DNA from: a virus
IMG/VR virus record: IMGVR_UViG_3300008216_000115
Span: 1 to 20,170 of that record
Direction: 5' to 3' (one strand)
DNA: 20,170 nucleotides
Position 1 is the stretch's first letter, and every line of letters begins with the position of its first letter. Below the pieces are notes generated by a model. That model was not told the origin of the DNA and did no database searches. It saw nothing but the letters and a program-made list of their open reading frames with translations. Shown here piece after piece: positions 5,842 through 20,170 of the stretch. The position numbers and the translations under genes were made by a program.

Positions 5842-6804
5842 TCACACTACCTCACCATTTTCTCTTATAAAGGCGTGGTCTTTGCCTAGATAATTAAACA
5901 TTGCCATCCAAAAATTATGAAGAGGTTTAAAGATAATTCCTATTTTGCCCTCACCATAATAATATTTACCATAACTAACGAGAGGATCAGTCATGAATGC
6001 TCTAACTGCAAATTTAACAAGCTTATATTTTCTCATAAGAGGGACCAATACCTCACTCAATTTATAATACCCTCTACGGTTCTGATCGGTCATCATCTCA
6101 TCTCTATAACGTCTTACAACCCTATCTAAAACGCCATTGCCATAACGGGCCTCTAGAAACATAAAACAACATCCAGCCGAGGCACCGGCCGTATAAAAAA
6201 AGGCTACCGCATAAGCGGCCGCAGCGATAACCGTCCCTACTGCACCTACAATTGCATTTGTCTGTCCAGCCGCTATCTGTTGATCAGTAAGTTGTTTTCT
6301 TAGCTTCATCTCTTGAATTGTAGAGTTAAGGTTTGAGATGGTAGATATACTTTGGTCTAGCTCTGCATACATTCGTGATGTTTTTGCGGCCTCCTGAATA
6401 TCCTCACGCTTTGAGAATAATCTTCGTTCCTCTTCTTGACCCCTCTCGACCTCTTGCTTTAACTCAAATTGTCCTTTAGCTCGTGTGGCCGTCTCTTTTA
6501 AGGCTATATCACCTAATCGCCTACCAGTGACAGTTGACCTAAGCATCCCTCTTTCAGCTTGTTGCTCACCTGTTCTGGTTCTCGCAACATCGGCTTGATA
6601 ACCAAACGATTCGAGTCTACGTTCTAATTCAGATCCCAAGGCCTCTTCTCTTCTCTGCCTTACCTCAATGGTTTCTTCTCTGAACCTTGACTCTCGTGCT
6701 TCGGCTTCACTTTCTCTTAAACCAAGCAATTCCTCTAATTCTTCTTTTCGTTGTTGTTGCTCGGCTTGTTCATCCTCTAAACTGTGCCATGCTGTGTGTG
6801 GCAT
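5842..6804 (-). CDS. Putative ejection protein with coiled coil, membrane segment and Cys-Phe motif domain
   Basis: A 320-aa protein starting with ATG behind a strong GGAGGT. Residues 8-180 are a long Glu/Arg/Gln-rich coiled coil. Residues 182-207 form an Ala/Val-rich hydrophobic segment (AIVGAVGTVIAAAAYAVAFF) that could span or insert into a membrane. A compact C-terminal domain follows, with CCFMFLEARYGNG at 212-224, RRYRDEMMT at 231-239 and GYYKLSEVLVPLM at 245-257. This Cys-Phe ... Arg-Tyr-Arg-Asp-Glu ... Tyr-Tyr ... Pro arrangement resembles a small domain I have seen in phage internal virion proteins and in CFI-box-type C-terminal domains; the link is pattern recall only. It directly follows the tail nozzle gene (2 nt gap). 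The layout suggests a protein stored in the virion and inserted into the host envelope at infection. Confidence 0.6.
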   Translation of the reverse strand: MPHTAWHSLEDEQAEQQQRKEELEELLGLRESEAEARESRFREETIEVRQRREEALGSELERRLESFGYQADVARTRTGEQQAERGMLRSTVTGRRLGDIALKETATRAKGQFELKQEVERGQEEERRLFSKREDIQEAAKTSRMYAELDQSISTISNLNSTIQEMKLRKQLTDQQIAAGQTNAIVGAVGTVIAAAAYAVAFFYTAGASAGCCFMFLEARYGNGVLDRVVRRYRDEMMTDQNRRGYYKLSEVLVPLMRKYKLVKFAVRAFMTDPLVSYGKYYYGEGKIGIIFKPLHNFWMAMFNYLGKDHAFIRENGEVV

Positions 6805-16412: not shown

Positions 16413-16616
16413 TCACAAAGCGTAGGAGGGCCTATCATCTATTTGTCTTTCAACTTTTTGCCCCAAACTTTTCTTACTAATTTCGTTGGTTGCATATTCT
16501 GCATAATCTTTACTCATTATTCTATCTAATAATGTTTTTCTTTCAAGATAATTCCTTATTTCGCTAAATATAATGTATATCATTAAAAAACTAATCATCA
16601 AAATTTCCATTCTCAT
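16413..16616 (-). CDS. Small single-pass membrane protein between TerL and portal
   Basis: A 67-aa protein whose ATG overlaps the TerL stop codon (ATGA). A GAGGA site lies in the TerL 3' end, so translation is coupled; a second ATG two codons on is an equally good start. Residues 4-18 (EILMISFLMIYIIFS) are a single hydrophobic N-terminal segment. A charged helix follows (EIRNYLERKTLLDRIMSKDY) with a soluble basic C-terminus. I recall small proteins of this form ('RK.LLDRIM.KDY.EY') beside terminase or portal genes in other phages, but I cannot name a tested function. It lacks a second hydrophobic segment, so it is not a classic two-pass holin. A membrane anchor for packaging or a lysis-linked protein are possible. 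Confidence 0.6.
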   Translation of the reverse strand: MRMEILMISFLMIYIIFSEIRNYLERKTLLDRIMSKDYAEYATNEISKKSLGQKVERQIDDRPSYAL

Positions 16617-18070
16617 AAGTCCTCATACTCCAATTGTTTAACTGTCCGTCTACTAAAAGATTGAATTTCATCGTAGGCCATTTGAGATAACTTATCTAAT
16701 CTCTTCTCTTCTTTAAAGATAGGTTTCATATCGCTTGGGTATACAACTTGTAACATACTTTTAAGAGCATCAATTAGGTCATCATTCTTAACGTGTGGAA
16801 AGGTAATTATCTGCCTATAAAGAGAACGCATATCTTTTTTTATATGAACCTTCTTTTGCTCAAAGATTGGTTGTAGTGCCCGAATCCTTGCCTCTTTACT
16901 TACTCGTGTATTGGTCGCCAAGGTTTTAACAGCGATATACTCATTCCTTTTTTCCATCTCAGCGAAGAGGTTAATCCTTAAAACCTTTTCAAGAGCGAAA
17001 TTTTCCATGGCCAAACACTGTAGTGGATACTTCTTATTAAGCTCAAAGATCAATCTGATAAGATCACTTGGTTCTACCTTTTCTTCTAGGGCCTCAAGCA
17101 CATACCAATTGCTATCATAGTCCACACCTACAACTACAAGGGCGCTGTAGTCTGATCTGGCCTTTAAACTAATTGCTGGATCAACCGATAGAAAGTAGAT
17201 TAAACCGTCGGGGGCATCAACATAATAACGTAAATCTTCATCCTTAAAAAAAGAAAACTGTGTGTAGTCTGCCTTGTTTAGATACTGACAACTATAGATG
17301 TAACTCCCTTGGGTCAACTTTTGTTGATCTAAGAAGTCTCTTGATAGAATCTCTGGCATGGTCAATCGACCCTGAGAATCTTCAGCGGCCCGATGAAAGT
17401 AATCAACCATCTTATACTCTGGACCCTCTGGATCTCTTAACCAGTCATATAAGCTATAAGCGCCCCATATAGTACCAATCGTGACAACCTCACCACCAGG
17501 ATCAAGTACTGATAAAAGTAACTTATAATAATCAATCGTCTTTTGAATAGCATCCTCAGAGTTTGTTGTACTCTGGCTGACAGCGTCATCGATAACGATA
17601 TAGTCGAAGTGTAGTCCAACCAATGAAGACTTCTCTAAAGAACCGGCCATAACGGTAGGCTCTTTCTTTACAATCTTTCTCGGCTTAACGATAAACTCAT
17701 TCATTTTCCAGCATAGGCCTCTATTGGACCAATCACCATATAAGGCCCTAAACTTGGCGTTGCCCTCTATGTGCTGCCTTATCTCACCAACAAACTTAAT
17801 ACTCTTATTCTGTGTCTCACTCGCTACCAAGATTCTAATGTTTGGATTCTGAATGATCTTTTGAATGGTATGCCCGATGGTAATAACTGAACTCTTAAAT
17901 GAACCCCTAGGCATAAGGATTAACTTAGTCCTCTTCTTACTCCGACCAATCCAATTGATTAACTCTTGATGTGGCTTTTGTCTTACTCGATCGTAACCAA
18001 GCACGTTCTTACATAACCAAAAAAGATCATCACGACCTTTCTTGGCAAGCTTTAATACTTTTTCATCCAT
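16613..18070 (-). CDS. Terminase large subunit (packaging ATPase and nuclease)
   Basis: A 485-aa motor for packaging DNA into the capsid. The start is the ATG at 18068-18070, which has GGGGAG 9 nt upstream; a TTG two codons earlier would be too close to it. The counts below use that longer numbering (487). The ATPase part has a Walker A-like PRGSFKSS (56-63), a Walker B-like DYIVIDD (158-164) ending in DD, and a coupling motif TIGTIWG (199-205). The nuclease part has SVDPA (297-301), MENF (357-360) and NDDLIDAL (431-438), giving the acidic residues of an RNase H-like fold: D299, E358 and D432 or D433. Order and length agree with the TerL family. The gene is followed by an ATGA overlap into a membrane protein and preceded by a micro-ORF. 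This is the most secure call in the window. Confidence 0.93.
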   Translation of the reverse strand: MDEKVLKLAKKGRDDLFWLCKNVLGYDRVRQKPHQELINWIGRSKKRTKLILMPRGSFKSSVITIGHTIQKIIQNPNIRILVASETQNKSIKFVGEIRQHIEGNAKFRALYGDWSNRGLCWKMNEFIVKPRKIVKKEPTVMAGSLEKSSLVGLHFDYIVIDDAVSQSTTNSEDAIQKTIDYYKLLLSVLDPGGEVVTIGTIWGAYSLYDWLRDPEGPEYKMVDYFHRAAEDSQGRLTMPEILSRDFLDQQKLTQGSYIYSCQYLNKADYTQFSFFKDEDLRYYVDAPDGLIYFLSVDPAISLKARSDYSALVVVGVDYDSNWYVLEALEEKVEPSDLIRLIFELNKKYPLQCLAMENFALEKVLRINLFAEMEKRNEYIAVKTLATNTRVSKEARIRALQPIFEQKKVHIKKDMRSLYRQIITFPHVKNDDLIDALKSMLQVVYPSDMKPIFKEEKRLDKLSQMAYDEIQSFSRRTVKQLEYEDL

Positions 18071-18140
18071 CGGCAAACGCTCCCCATGTCAACCACACCA
18101 TAATGGCGGCCAATAGAATTATGCCGAAATTACTCAACAT
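18063..18140 (-). CDS. 25-codon hydrophobic micro-ORF bridging TerS and TerL
   Basis: The ORF starts with ATG inside the last codons of the TerS gene (11-nt overlap with its stop) and ends with TGA inside the first codons of TerL (8-nt overlap with the TerL ATG). It therefore fills exactly the gap that otherwise has no gene. It encodes 25 residues: MLSNFG, then a hydrophobic segment (IILLAAIMVWLTWGAF) and ADG at the end. That is one membrane span, or a signal-peptide-like form. There is no strong ribosome binding site, only GAG before the ATG, so it would rely on translational coupling to TerS. No family recognised. It could be a leader that couples TerS and TerL translation, a tiny membrane protein, or chance. 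Confidence 0.45.
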   Translation of the reverse strand: MLSNFGIILLAAIMVWLTWGAFADG

Positions 18141-18603
18141 CTCGTGATTCAAACATTTCGAGAACATTCTCTTTAACTGTCTCTTTTTCAACATTAAAAT
18201 CTCCCCTTAACTTACAAATAAGCTCGATCGATTTAAGACGTGTCTTATAGTCAGGTATCCAGTTTCCATTTGTGTCTTGTTTCATTTGAGTTGCTTTGAG
18301 ACAAAGCTTTAATTGATCCGAGATAAAACTAGCATCGAGGCCGCTAGAGGTAATAACTTCGGATGTGCTAAGTTGACGACTCTTTAACTCAGCACCCTTA
18401 CTATCAACCCCGGCTTCCTCACATGCTAGTTCTAAGCTGCCGTGTTCTATGAGTCTGTTTATAAGATGCCTTATGTACCCTGGCAACTCATTAAATTTTT
18501 TTTTAGAATTTTGGGTGAAAACTCCGCTATCCGTTGGTGCCTGTTTGTAAACTATTTTGTGCTTGCCCTTGTGATCTTGGTCGTCTTGTTCTTCGCTTAT
18601 CAC
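18130..18603 (-). CDS. Putative terminase small subunit
   Basis: About 157 aa. I choose the GTG at 18601-18603 because GAGAGGTG lies 5 nt upstream; a GTG two codons earlier exists but sits inside that site. The N-terminus is acidic and polar and contains an A9 run (SKKKF). Residues about 45-75 have YIRHLINRLIEHGSLELACE, then EAGVDSKGAEL, a helix-turn-helix-like pattern. The end has LKLCLKATQMKQDTNGNWIP and DYKTRLKSIELICKLRGDFN. The pairing of an N-terminal HTH with a later 'pDyktRlkSiEl..kL.G' helix is typical of TerS proteins, which recognise the DNA to be packaged. It lies directly before TerL, and its 5' end overlaps the dehydrogenase gene by about 75 nt. Confidence 0.7.
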   Translation of the reverse strand: MISEEQDDQDHKGKHKIVYKQAPTDSGVFTQNSKKKFNELPGYIRHLINRLIEHGSLELACEEAGVDSKGAELKSRQLSTSEVITSSGLDASFISDQLKLCLKATQMKQDTNGNWIPDYKTRLKSIELICKLRGDFNVEKETVKENVLEMFESRDVE

Positions 18604-19447
18604 TTTCACCTCTCACCGTAATATTTTGCATAGGTAAATCGATCAATCGCCTGGGATTAAACCTTTTAGCCCTTGATTTATTTGAATCAATCGTTGCTTG
18701 AATAATATCTAGATTAACGTGTCTGAAATGAGTATTGAATGCAGCAAGGTCTTTAGGGAAACATTCCCCACCAAAACCTAATTTACCCCTATGAGGGACA
18801 CTTATATGTCTCGGATTAATCCACCCGGTGATACTGGCCGCTATGTTCATTAAAGGTTGGTACTCTAACTTAAGATCCTCGCAGACACTGAACAACTCAT
18901 TACAAATCCCCACCTTACAAGCAAGGAATATATTGTGCATGTACTTGATCATCTCGGTCTGGGTACTTAAACCAACATAGGCCCTTCGAACTCCTAGTGG
19001 TTGATGGACCTTAAGAACCTTTTCCATGGTGGCCCTAAAATCATCTCGATTCTTATCACCACCTATAATAATTTCCTTTTGATCCTTAAAGTCCTGTACC
19101 GCTGTTTTAGCACTTAGGAATTCTGGACAGTGAACAATATTAAGTTTCATATTCTTATTAAACTTTTCACATATACCAGGAATGACTGTCGACTTAATAA
19201 CAACGATTCCTTCGAACTTCATATTCTGTAATAGTATAAGCGTCCTCTGAACGGCCGATCTATCTTGTAACCCTGCATTTGTGGGTGTCGGTAGGCATAG
19301 AAAAACCATGTCCATGGCCCTAAGCTTATCCACATTCTTACAATACTCAGGTTTCTTTGTATCGTAACCTATAACACTATGGTGGGCACTAAGCCCCTGT
19401 AGTACGGCATTCCCGACCGTACCTATTCCAATTACTCCGATCTTCAT
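18527..19447 (-). CDS. UDP-glucose/GDP-mannose dehydrogenase-like enzyme, no C-terminal domain
   Basis: A 306-aa protein starting with ATG behind AAGGGG. It has the Rossmann loop GVIGIGTVG (4-12), LCLPTPT (50-56), KSTVIPG (85-91), CPEFLS (107-112), EMIKYMHNIFLACKVGICNE (165-184) and GFGGECFPKDL (224-234). Cys229 is in the place of the catalytic thiol, with Lys168 and Asn172 in the central block. This is the NAD-binding and central part of the family that oxidises nucleotide-sugar C6 to a uronic acid. Members are usually 390-450 aa; the C-terminal sugar-nucleotide domain is absent, and the last ~27 residues are Arg/Gln/Ser-rich and overlap TerS. So it may be inactive, or work with a partner or a partial site. 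The operon position suggests a phage-borne metabolic gene, perhaps for surface-glycan change. Confidence 0.82.
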   Translation of the reverse strand: MKIGVIGIGTVGNAVLQGLSAHHSVIGYDTKKPEYCKNVDKLRAMDMVFLCLPTPTNAGLQDRSAVQRTLILLQNMKFEGIVVIKSTVIPGICEKFNKNMKLNIVHCPEFLSAKTAVQDFKDQKEIIIGGDKNRDDFRATMEKVLKVHQPLGVRRAYVGLSTQTEMIKYMHNIFLACKVGICNELFSVCEDLKLEYQPLMNIAASITGWINPRHISVPHRGKLGFGGECFPKDLAAFNTHFRHVNLDIIQATIDSNKSRAKRFNPRRLIDLPMQNITVRGESDKRRTRRPRSQGQAQNSLQTGTNG

Positions 19448-19456
19448 AATTTCCCC

Positions 19457-19753
19457 TTACTGTAAAATTGGTCTTTCACCTTCTAATACTTTAAGTCTAG
19501 ATTCAAGAAATTCGATATCATCATTCAACTCTTGTATACAACGAATCAATATGGGTAGTAACCCATCTGACTTTATAGTTTCCCCTAGATCGGGATCTTC
19601 ATAGATTAAAGAAGGAAATACTTGCTTGAAGTCCTTTACATCAAATCCATACCTAACATCTTCGGGATCATCGTATGTATATTCTAATGGGACTAGATTA
19701 AGGACTTTTATAAGCTCATCAACCAATATCATCTTATTCTTCTTACCACTCAC
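19457..19753 (-). CDS. Free-standing S74 / endosialidase-chaperone-like protein, no visible protease motif
   Basis: A 98-aa protein starting with GTG at 19751-19753. GGGAGG sits upstream and the start overlaps the HTH stop codon (GTGA). The sequence reads LNLVPLEYTYDD, then YGFDVKDFKQVFPSLI (35-50), then GLLPILIRCIQELNDDIEFL (64-83) and ESRLKVLEGE. This is the order of the Peptidase_S74 / intramolecular chaperone: 'L.P..Y ... YGF.AQ.v...FP.LV ... LiPlL..aIqEL...le.RL..LE'. In the known domain a SD..LK motif provides the Ser/Lys pair for self-cleavage. Here the N-terminus is only SGKKNK, so cleavage is unlikely. Such domains normally sit at the C-terminus of tail fibres; here it stands alone, 9-10 kb from the fibre genes. 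It may act in trans on trimer folding, or be a remnant. Confidence 0.65.
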   Translation of the reverse strand: MSGKKNKMILVDELIKVLNLVPLEYTYDDPEDVRYGFDVKDFKQVFPSLIYEDPDLGETIKSDGLLPILIRCIQELNDDIEFLESRLKVLEGERPILQ

Positions 19754-19992
19754 GCATCCCCTCCCTTCTTATAGTATCTTGATGCCGTTGTTATACATAC
19801 ACCGAGTACTCTAGAACATTTTGCAACGTTACCTCCAGTCACTCTATAGGCATTTCGATAAATCTCTTTCCTTAGTAGATGACATATATACGGGCAAGAT
19901 AGTTCATTCTCTTGTGTAAACCTCGCTGCAATCGCTTTAATGAGAGCTTCGATGTCCATCGGGACGTGTGTCTTCTTAAACTCTAATTTCAT
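19750..19992 (-). CDS. Small Fis-type helix-turn-helix protein
   Basis: An 80-aa protein starting with ATG behind AAGG 8 nt upstream. The C-terminal part has RKEIYRNAYRVTGGNVAKCS (41-60) followed by RVLGVCITTASRYYKK, matching the Fis-type HTH (HTH_8) pattern 'al...gGN...aa..LGi...tl.r..kk'. It would bind DNA as a dimer. The N-terminal 40 residues are charged, with two Cys and no recognisable domain. As the first gene of the late operon it could regulate late transcription or act in DNA-packaging recognition; neither is shown by the sequence. It shares a 4-nt overlap with the next gene. The HTH call is moderately secure, the role is not. Confidence 0.65.
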   Translation of the reverse strand: MKLEFKKTHVPMDIEALIKAIAARFTQENELSCPYICHLLRKEIYRNAYRVTGGNVAKCSRVLGVCITTASRYYKKGGDA

Positions 19993-20170
19993 GCACTAAA
20001 CCTTATTAAAATTTTATGCGTATAGACTAGGTGGGTTGTTGTGTTATGACAAGTTGGGGAATTGGTGAGTCAGTTTGAATTTTTTTTTGGGAATAATGAG
20101 GGGGGGGTTGGTGTGAATATCTTTTTTTGCCGTGGTCGGGTGGGGTAAATGCTAACAGGGATTCTTTCCC
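19993..20170. other. Upstream region at the right edge, biased composition, no clear promoter
   Basis: These 178 nt hold no gene I can support firmly. On the minus strand the sequence is A/C-rich and T-poor, with homopolymers C8 and A9 and an A7. One minus frame (20027-20170) is open for 47 codons from the edge and encodes a Pro/Gln/Lys-rich stretch ending in TQQPT; it could be the tail of an upstream gene, but a second frame is open for 32 codons too, as T-poor DNA gives few stops. Near the HTH start there is an AT-rich stretch with the palindrome TAAAATTTTA (20007-20016), a possible promoter-proximal or regulator site. I find no good -35/-10 pair. Confidence 0.4.

Follow-up and report, generated by a model that had tools for sequence, protein, structure and literature searches.

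ICA (S74) chaperone domains (PF13884) are known from endoNF/K1F, the L-shaped fiber of T5 and gp12 of GA-1, and the transcription factor MyRF also carries one (PMC8326128). As described in the available parts of PMC8326128 and PMC7289586, the fused ICA trimer aids the assembly of three chains and then cleaves itself off. The catalytic residues are S587 and K592 in MyRF, and S911 and K916 in endoNF (PMC8326128). Cleavage of MyRF was located before the serine, between P586 and S587 (PMC8326128), whereas the text available of PMC10579305 places cleavage after the serine. New cleavage sites were reported for several MyRF mutants, Q639A among them (PMC8326128).

Some fiber chaperones are encoded by genes of their own. 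Gp9 of phage A5 and gp27 of phage V22, both from Alteromonas phages, are products of separate genes that are described as resembling ICA domains, as homotrimers in AlphaFold predictions, and as possible transient caps (PMC10579305). V22 gp27 is described as necessary for the function of its fiber and as not staying on it (PMC7289586). The chaperones of T4 (gp38), the R-pyocin and V22 are reported to adjoin their fibers directly (PMC7289586). Gp25 of phage Pam3 is a separate trimeric fiber chaperone that acts in trans, and its overall structure has been likened to that of ICA domains; according to the same description, a β-sandwich domain binds the fiber in place of the ICA tentacle (PMC9608196). 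The available parts of five further articles mention no detached phage S74 gene (PMC12846349, PMC12632334, PMC7824862, PMC8262889, PMC10769870).

A separate gene, second in the visible operon

The window analyzed here comprises all 20,170 bases of a virus record that may be a fragment, and the genome it belongs to is probably incomplete. The main genes are on the minus strand (Table 1). The order from the right is an 80-residue HTH-like protein, the 98-residue protein studied here, a sugar dehydrogenase, and the small (assigned by position) and large terminase subunits. These are followed by a 67-residue ORF, the portal, a scaffold-like protein (by position), the capsid protein, small ORFs and fiber-like ORFs, and then by a 607-residue virion protein and genes that may encode internal virion proteins (by position). 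A reading of the sequence made before this analysis (hereafter, the sequence-only reading) placed the gene where we find it and put it at the head of the operon. It is indeed near the head, but as the second visible gene, after that of the HTH-like protein.

Table 1 Features of the window that are discussed in the text
Feature	Positions	Strand	Basis
Detached S74/ICA-like chaperone gene, 98 aa	19457..19753	(-)	Profile match, AF2 model, PDB comparisons, codon usage
Codons 1-4 of this gene; ORF begins about two residues past where the catalytic Ser would lie, with Lys4 in the catalytic Lys position (rival register: Ser2/Lys7)	19742..19753	(-)	VIA ranges
Val39-Lys40, replacing the conserved Ala-Gln of GFIAQ	19634..19639	(-)	194 S74 ORFs compared
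Predicted C-terminal helix 62-91, heptads I73 L76 I80 L83 L87 L90, RLKVLE at 86-91	19481..19570	(-)	AF2 helix, positions
Stretch of purines preceding the GTG, aagggagggga, ribosome-binding-like	19757..19767	(-)	Sequence
Upstream HTH-like gene, 80 aa, stop overlaps the start of the chaperone-like gene	19750..19992	(-)	HTH_8, weak, E 0.085
UDP-glucose-dehydrogenase-like gene downstream, two domains matched	18527..19447	(-)	40% identical in G001
Probable small terminase subunit, from its place before the large subunit	18130..18609	(-)	Same-place counterpart in G001
Large terminase subunit	16613..18076	(-)	54% identical in G001
Small fiber-like ORFs, 178, 125, 95 and 122 aa	8981..10563	(-)	95-aa ORF: fiber profile phrog_892, E 6e-5

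The GTG start codon of the gene overlaps the TGA of the upstream gene and is immediately preceded by gggagggg, a strong ribosome-binding site; the following gene begins 9 bases downstream. An ATG at codon 8 is a possible alternative start with, judged by eye, a weaker site. In frame, the codon usage scores 0.24 bits per codon, which is similar to the 0.06-0.21 bits per codon of six comparison genes, none of them in the training set; the remaining five frames score between -0.25 and -1.53. With its start overlap, ribosome-binding site and codon usage, this looks like a real, coding gene.

Of the relatives found, contig G001 alone reaches across this end of the window; it is 28,312 bases long, and its portal is 57% identical. 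The stop-to-stop frame of the gene comprises 103 codons and is closed five codons before the GTG, and both flanking genes are matched in place in G001; an origin as a frameshift or split-fiber artifact was therefore rejected. An assembly chimera is unlikely, because the neighbors on both sides have their counterparts in the same place in G001. The gene is thus separate, as had been proposed, and is not the end of a broken fiber gene.

Homology to S74/ICA domains

Searches with single families found little in the 98-residue protein. The Pfam model PF13884 matched it with E 0.17 and 12.6 bits, below the gathering cut-off of 22. A six-frame search of the window record with the same model returned no match, and it is insensitive, as it also misses the 98-residue protein. 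NCBIfam gave no match at E ≤ 0.1, and the search of PDB sequences gave unrelated weak matches only. The Pfam model is only 58 positions long; we read it as spanning chiefly the cleavage site and the 'FIAQ' strand, which are the parts that have changed in the protein.

Searches with broader sets of sequences gave a clearer result. Fifteen PHROGs families matched at E ≤ 1 (best E 7.2e-6), twelve of them in the category tail, and all fifteen matches end at most 13 positions from the end of the profile. A tblastn search found 32 phage records at E ≤ 0.01, in which the matched genes are annotated as fiber, neck appendage or PblB (17), hyaluronidase (6), hypothetical protein (7) and endopeptidase (1), and one record is unannotated. 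The context of eight of these records was inspected, and each time the match forms the end of an ORF of at least 375 residues. A profile of the eight domains, from which the protein was left out, gives it 59.7 bits. A profile of 49 S74 domains from IMG/VR, also built without it, gives 56.1 bits over residues 5-89, and the best of 2000 shuffled sequences reaches 6.2 bits. The 49 domains were chosen from 79 loci of one IMG/VR scan that had been found with an alignment containing the 98-residue protein, which selects the S74 domains nearest to it; their identity to it is 21-33%. All 49 match PF13884 at E ≤ 0.01, and the 98-residue protein does not. Judged by these profiles, its S74 likeness is far beyond chance, though weak in single-family searches.

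Single positions and gene lengths were compared in 166 distinct loci (151 viral, 15 bacterial), fetched from among those listed by two viral scans and one genome scan. The loci hold 194 S74 ORFs and form a non-random sample, in which the search patterns came from alignments containing the 98-residue protein and near-duplicates were kept.

Predicted fold and coiled coil

The AlphaFold (AF2) model of the protein has a mean pLDDT of 90.5, with an average of 76 for the first ten residues. Its elements follow each other in the order helix (13-18), strand (22-26), strand (33-37), helix (39-45), strand (50-53), strand (57-60) and a long C-terminal helix. In a Foldseek search of the PDB, the top 11 rows are all ICA structures (7dc3, 3gw6, 3gud), the best of them with E 2.2e-3 and a probability of 1.00; no match reaches E 0.001. 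The VIA comparison with the PDB gave MyRF (7dc3) with Z 8.6 and rmsd 2.6 over 96 residues, followed by endoNF (3gw6, Z 7.5), T5 (4uw8, Z 5.9) and GA-1 (3gud, Z 5.9), and the best non-ICA row has Z 2.5; values of Z below 8 can mean a common arrangement, and only MyRF is above 8. A library of viral models yielded 280 matches at E ≤ 1e-3, and the 50 among them that were listed are S74/ICA, fiber, baseplate, neck-appendage, structural or unnamed proteins. The predicted fold is that of ICA domains.

By sequence profile and predicted fold, the 98-residue protein is a homologue of the ICA (S74) chaperone domain. It shares with the described ICA domains the profile, the predicted fold, the coiled-coil end and, if the structural register is right, the lysine of the catalytic dyad. 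Unlike them, it is not fused to a fiber, lacks Ser-Asp in the preferred register, has 'VK' in place of 'AQ' and stays below the Pfam cut-off. The proposal of a detached S74-like chaperone, which had come from the letters alone, thus agrees with the 49-domain profile and with the model, even though PF13884 itself falls short. The accompanying claim that the protein is the second half of the domain has to be amended: the coiled-coil part is present, but helix 1 and all four strands are predicted as well.

The long helix carries RLKVLE, which we take to be a trimer-type coiled-coil motif. A motif of this type occurs in 70 of the 194 S74 tails, compared with a mean of 1 in shuffled sequences. The heptads and RLKVLE would fit a homotrimer formed through the C-terminal coiled coil.

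A start at or close to the position of the cleavage site

In the VIA alignments, residue 1 of the protein corresponds to residue 589 of MyRF and 913 of endoNF, two past S587 and S911, respectively. If the alignment is free of gaps, Lys4 falls on K592 of MyRF and K916 of endoNF. Two sequence alignments (A2 and A5) agree with this structural register, in which the protein starts two residues past the serine and Lys4 takes the position of the invariant lysine. A third alignment (A6), with two close fibers, gives a rival register in which Ser2 and Lys7 would form the dyad; the spacing of the dyad would be kept and the aspartate would still be missing. Although this leaves the register in some doubt, the protein starts at most two residues from the cleavage site in both cases and is without the aspartate.

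The positions concerned are strongly conserved. Among the 194 S74 ORFs, the serine is present in 193, the aspartate in 188, the lysine in all 194, the alanine of 'AQ' in 192 and the glutamine in 181. In the preferred register, the 98-residue protein lacks the catalytic serine and the aspartate that follows it, and both residues of 'AQ' are replaced. Q639 of MyRF probably corresponds to the glutamine of this pair. The loss of the serine and the exchange of A-Q for V-K are expected if cleavage is no longer under selection. The pattern fits a domain that would have kept the chaperone core and the coiled coil and is no longer a protease. That the cleavage motif SD..LK is missing had been claimed before, and the alignments and the structural register bear this out for its Ser-Asp. 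Because it has no Ser-Asp in the preferred register, scores below the Pfam cut-off and is unfused to a fiber, we would not class the protein among the S74 peptidases. The single S74 ORF of the 194 without the catalytic serine has a cysteine in its place (L055:487-1149); it encodes a 220-residue protein that does not look fiber-like by eye.

Genomic context and the related contig G001

Fifteen of the 22 window proteins tested match G001 at E ≤ 1e-3, in the same order. They are the dehydrogenase, both terminase subunits, the 67-residue ORF, the portal, the scaffold-like and capsid proteins, the ORFs of 130, 175, 229, 122, 95 and 125 residues, the 607-residue protein and a 320-residue protein, the last over 56 residues only. 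The seven proteins without a match at this threshold include the 98-residue protein, the 178-residue fiber-like ORF and the HTH-like protein; for the last of these, a pairwise comparison shows a counterpart at the equivalent place in G001 (E 8e-6). Between its HTH-like and dehydrogenase genes, G001 has two other small ORFs, so the slot that holds the detached S74 gene is not filled alike in the two phages. A direct search of G001 with the 98-residue protein found no match, an empty answer that shows nothing, as it had no positive control. PF13884 found no match in G001 either, in a search that is insensitive, since it misses the 98-residue protein in the window. The 8- and 49-domain S74 profiles, both of which do find the protein, found nothing of note in G001 (L009 and L026).

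G001 is cut inside a fiber-like gene (L026:3-455), before the C-terminus of its product. Five of the 194 S74 ORFs resemble this fragment at E ≤ 1e-3, and a search of the named-phage collection with it returned no match. Only 123 bases of the window follow its last gene, and therefore the region matching the fiber-like gene of G001 is not seen in the window phage. The near-identical contig G002 (L002, L004, L128) begins inside the large terminase gene, short of this end, and contig G003 (L003) begins inside the portal gene and runs the opposite way. We found no near-identical contig extending past the left end of the window, so that a fiber there is neither shown nor excluded. Searches of named phages with the portal, large terminase, internal and capsid proteins gave no match of at least 60% identity. 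Ten other relatives of the dehydrogenase (L010-L019) were scanned with the S74 profiles only, with nothing below E 0.049.

The probable small terminase subunit has no informative family match in Pfam or PHROGs. In the dehydrogenase, only the NAD-binding and central domains are matched, and the end of the gene overlaps the next gene; the copy in G001 is also short, at 266 residues. The 320-residue ORF (5842-6804) matches G001 through residues 36-91 only, and its C-terminal approximately 130 residues look like an added domain. Further along G001 (L026:2160-7939), Pfam identifies NeuB, an MptE-like protein, UDP-GlcNAc 2-epimerase, a cytidylyltransferase and a methyltransferase, a run of sugar-acid genes that possibly serves the remodeling of surface sugars. 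The last 130 bases of the window (20040-20170) consist of G and T runs and have, by eye, the look of a low-quality contig end or of low complexity.

Which fiber could be served

No fiber in view adjoins the gene, in contrast to those of the T4 gp38, R-pyocin and V22 chaperones. The sequence-only reading described it as far from any fiber. This holds for the small fiber-like ORFs of the window, which are 8.9 to 10.5 kb away, and is not judgeable beyond them, as the record is probably a fragment. The same reading offered the small fiber-like ORFs as clients of the chaperone, which our comparison does not support: three of the four have counterparts in G001, where no S74 domain is in view. The absence of a detected S74 domain from G001 would speak against such clients only mildly, because the contig is cut inside its fiber-like gene. 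The ORFs of 178, 125 and 122 residues have no fiber match in Pfam or PHROGs. Only the 178-residue ORF is without a counterpart in G001, which makes it the best candidate in the window, provided that the window holds the client. We compared 153 distinct 45-residue stalks of S74 proteins with the 22 window proteins and found nothing convincing (best E 0.11 by profile and 0.022 for a single stalk), although this is a weak test. The client would be either a fiber beyond the record or the 178-residue fiber-like ORF.

Proposed function and alternatives

We propose, with a probability of about 0.5, that the 98-residue protein is a protease-dead ICA chaperone that acts in trans on a fiber or spike. 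An ICA domain would have been cut loose from its fiber at the old self-cleavage site and would have lost its auto-protease. The protein would form a small trimer through the C-terminal coiled coil, which could bind in trans, as a cap, to the growing end of the trimeric fiber or spike of the same phage and set the register of the three chains. The trimer would then leave or be displaced. Cleavage would be unneeded, because the chaperone was never covalently attached, and a detached ICA copy could help in assembly only by binding in trans. By analogy with the known chaperones, both trimer formation and activity in trans may be expected of it. A further-reaching idea, about which we are more doubtful than convinced, is that a split of the S74 system has taken place in the phage exactly where the system cuts itself. 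The independent gene for a protease-dead chaperone, near the head of the visible operon, would then uncouple trimerization from linkage and cleavage, and one small trimer could serve any fiber that the phage acquires.

Separate ICA-like chaperones that act in trans have already been published, and the 98-residue protein would be a variant of this kind. The likeness to A5 gp9 and Pam3 gp25 follows from their published descriptions (available parts of PMC10579305 and PMC9608196, respectively). V22 gp27 differs in being 195 residues long and encoded directly behind its fiber gene; BLAST finds no match between it and the 98-residue protein at E ≤ 10, and the S74 profile gives gp27 -0.6 bits. The protein would link, by sequence, the built-in ICA domains with separate chaperones that were likened to them by shape (A5 gp9, V22 gp27, Pam3 gp25). 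Published descriptions have S74 chaperones built in and removing themselves, and this one starts at the cleavage site without the nucleophile. It would let one ask directly if folding depends on covalent linkage and cleavage or if a trimeric cap alone is enough. If the action in trans is true, the protein could be a small helper for the production of trimeric fibers.

The gene could instead be the end of a former fiber gene, left open and functionless in a variable slot between the HTH-like and sugar-dehydrogenase genes. Such a relic would suit the presence of other small ORFs in the slot of G001, the loss of several of the most conserved S74 positions and the lack of close relatives among the viral and genome contigs searched. 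Yet the frame is intact throughout the domain, whose identity to the 49 domains of the profile is only 21-33%, the codon usage, strong ribosome-binding site and start overlap are those expected of a coding gene, and the model is confident, with the heptads kept. A recent relic would probably also be closer to some fiber, and on balance we regard this origin as unlikely. It is improbable, too, that the trimer remains part of the virion for good, as the uncleaved tip or adaptor of a fiber or spike. Self-cleavage is not expected of the protein, its gene precedes those of the terminase and virion proteins on the same strand, and separate chaperones are described as staying on the tip of Mu and S16-type fibers (PMC7289586); however, in the available accounts the mature fiber has normally lost its ICA domain (PMC8326128, PMC7289586), and the window holds no known pairing partner.

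We give little credence to an extra copy, in which the phage would have, beyond the record, a full-length fiber bearing an S74 domain and the small protein would be a helper, a decoy or a spare recombination module. The window stops shortly after its last gene, and G001 ends inside a fiber-like gene that a few S74 ORFs resemble, which would leave room for such a fiber. But the fiber of G001 is cut before the C-terminus, so that no S74 domain is seen on it, its fragment is without a match in the phage collection, and the corresponding region of the window phage is not seen at all. It would surprise us most if the protein were an oligomerization or regulatory partner of the HTH-like protein or of the sugar dehydrogenase, with the ICA trimer as a scaffold as in MyRF. 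The presence of an ICA domain in a transcription factor (PMC8326128) and the overlap of the start codon with the stop of the HTH-like gene point in this direction, whereas both neighbors have counterparts in G001 without the 98-residue protein, and no fusion of the two was seen.

Stand-alone S74 proteins

In the 166 loci, 53 of the 194 S74 ORFs extend beyond the fetched sequence on the 5' side; none of the 141 with a closed 5' end is shorter than 195 residues. Searches of viral and genome contigs for the same detached gene returned no close relative, although near-identical records were perhaps left out. In 296 genomes of one phylum, taken around a Saprospiraceae MAG (L116), 88 have S74 matches, and five of the 150 matches listed are in open frames of at most 160 residues. 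Two of the five (127 and 150 residues) have no clear upstream start and may be fragments. The other three (L124:1811-2281, L125:1941-2420 and L126:1967-2428; open frames of 157, 160 and 154 residues) appear, by eye, to have nothing besides a signal peptide and the S74 domain, and their SD..K motif is changed or missing. This suggests that S74-only proteins exist in cells. Like the 98-residue protein, the three have an S74 domain without a fiber part; they differ from it in the apparent signal peptide, in a stronger match to the S74 profile (69-81 bits) and in being encoded in bacterial genomes. NCBIfam gave no match for them, and they are possibly an undescribed secreted family.

The protein PS2_254 ('gp36B') of Serratia phage PS2 resembles the 98-residue protein in being annotated as a stand-alone protein of 108 residues that is S74 by profile. 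We rejected it as a precedent, since it is best read as a frameshift product: the identical 108 residues end an intact 563-residue fiber gene in phage Muldoon. In the deposited record of PS2 (L127:36959-38651), the fiber gene is apparently split by the frameshift and annotated as two proteins, one of which is named 'split hinge connector', and Muldoon has one intact gene.
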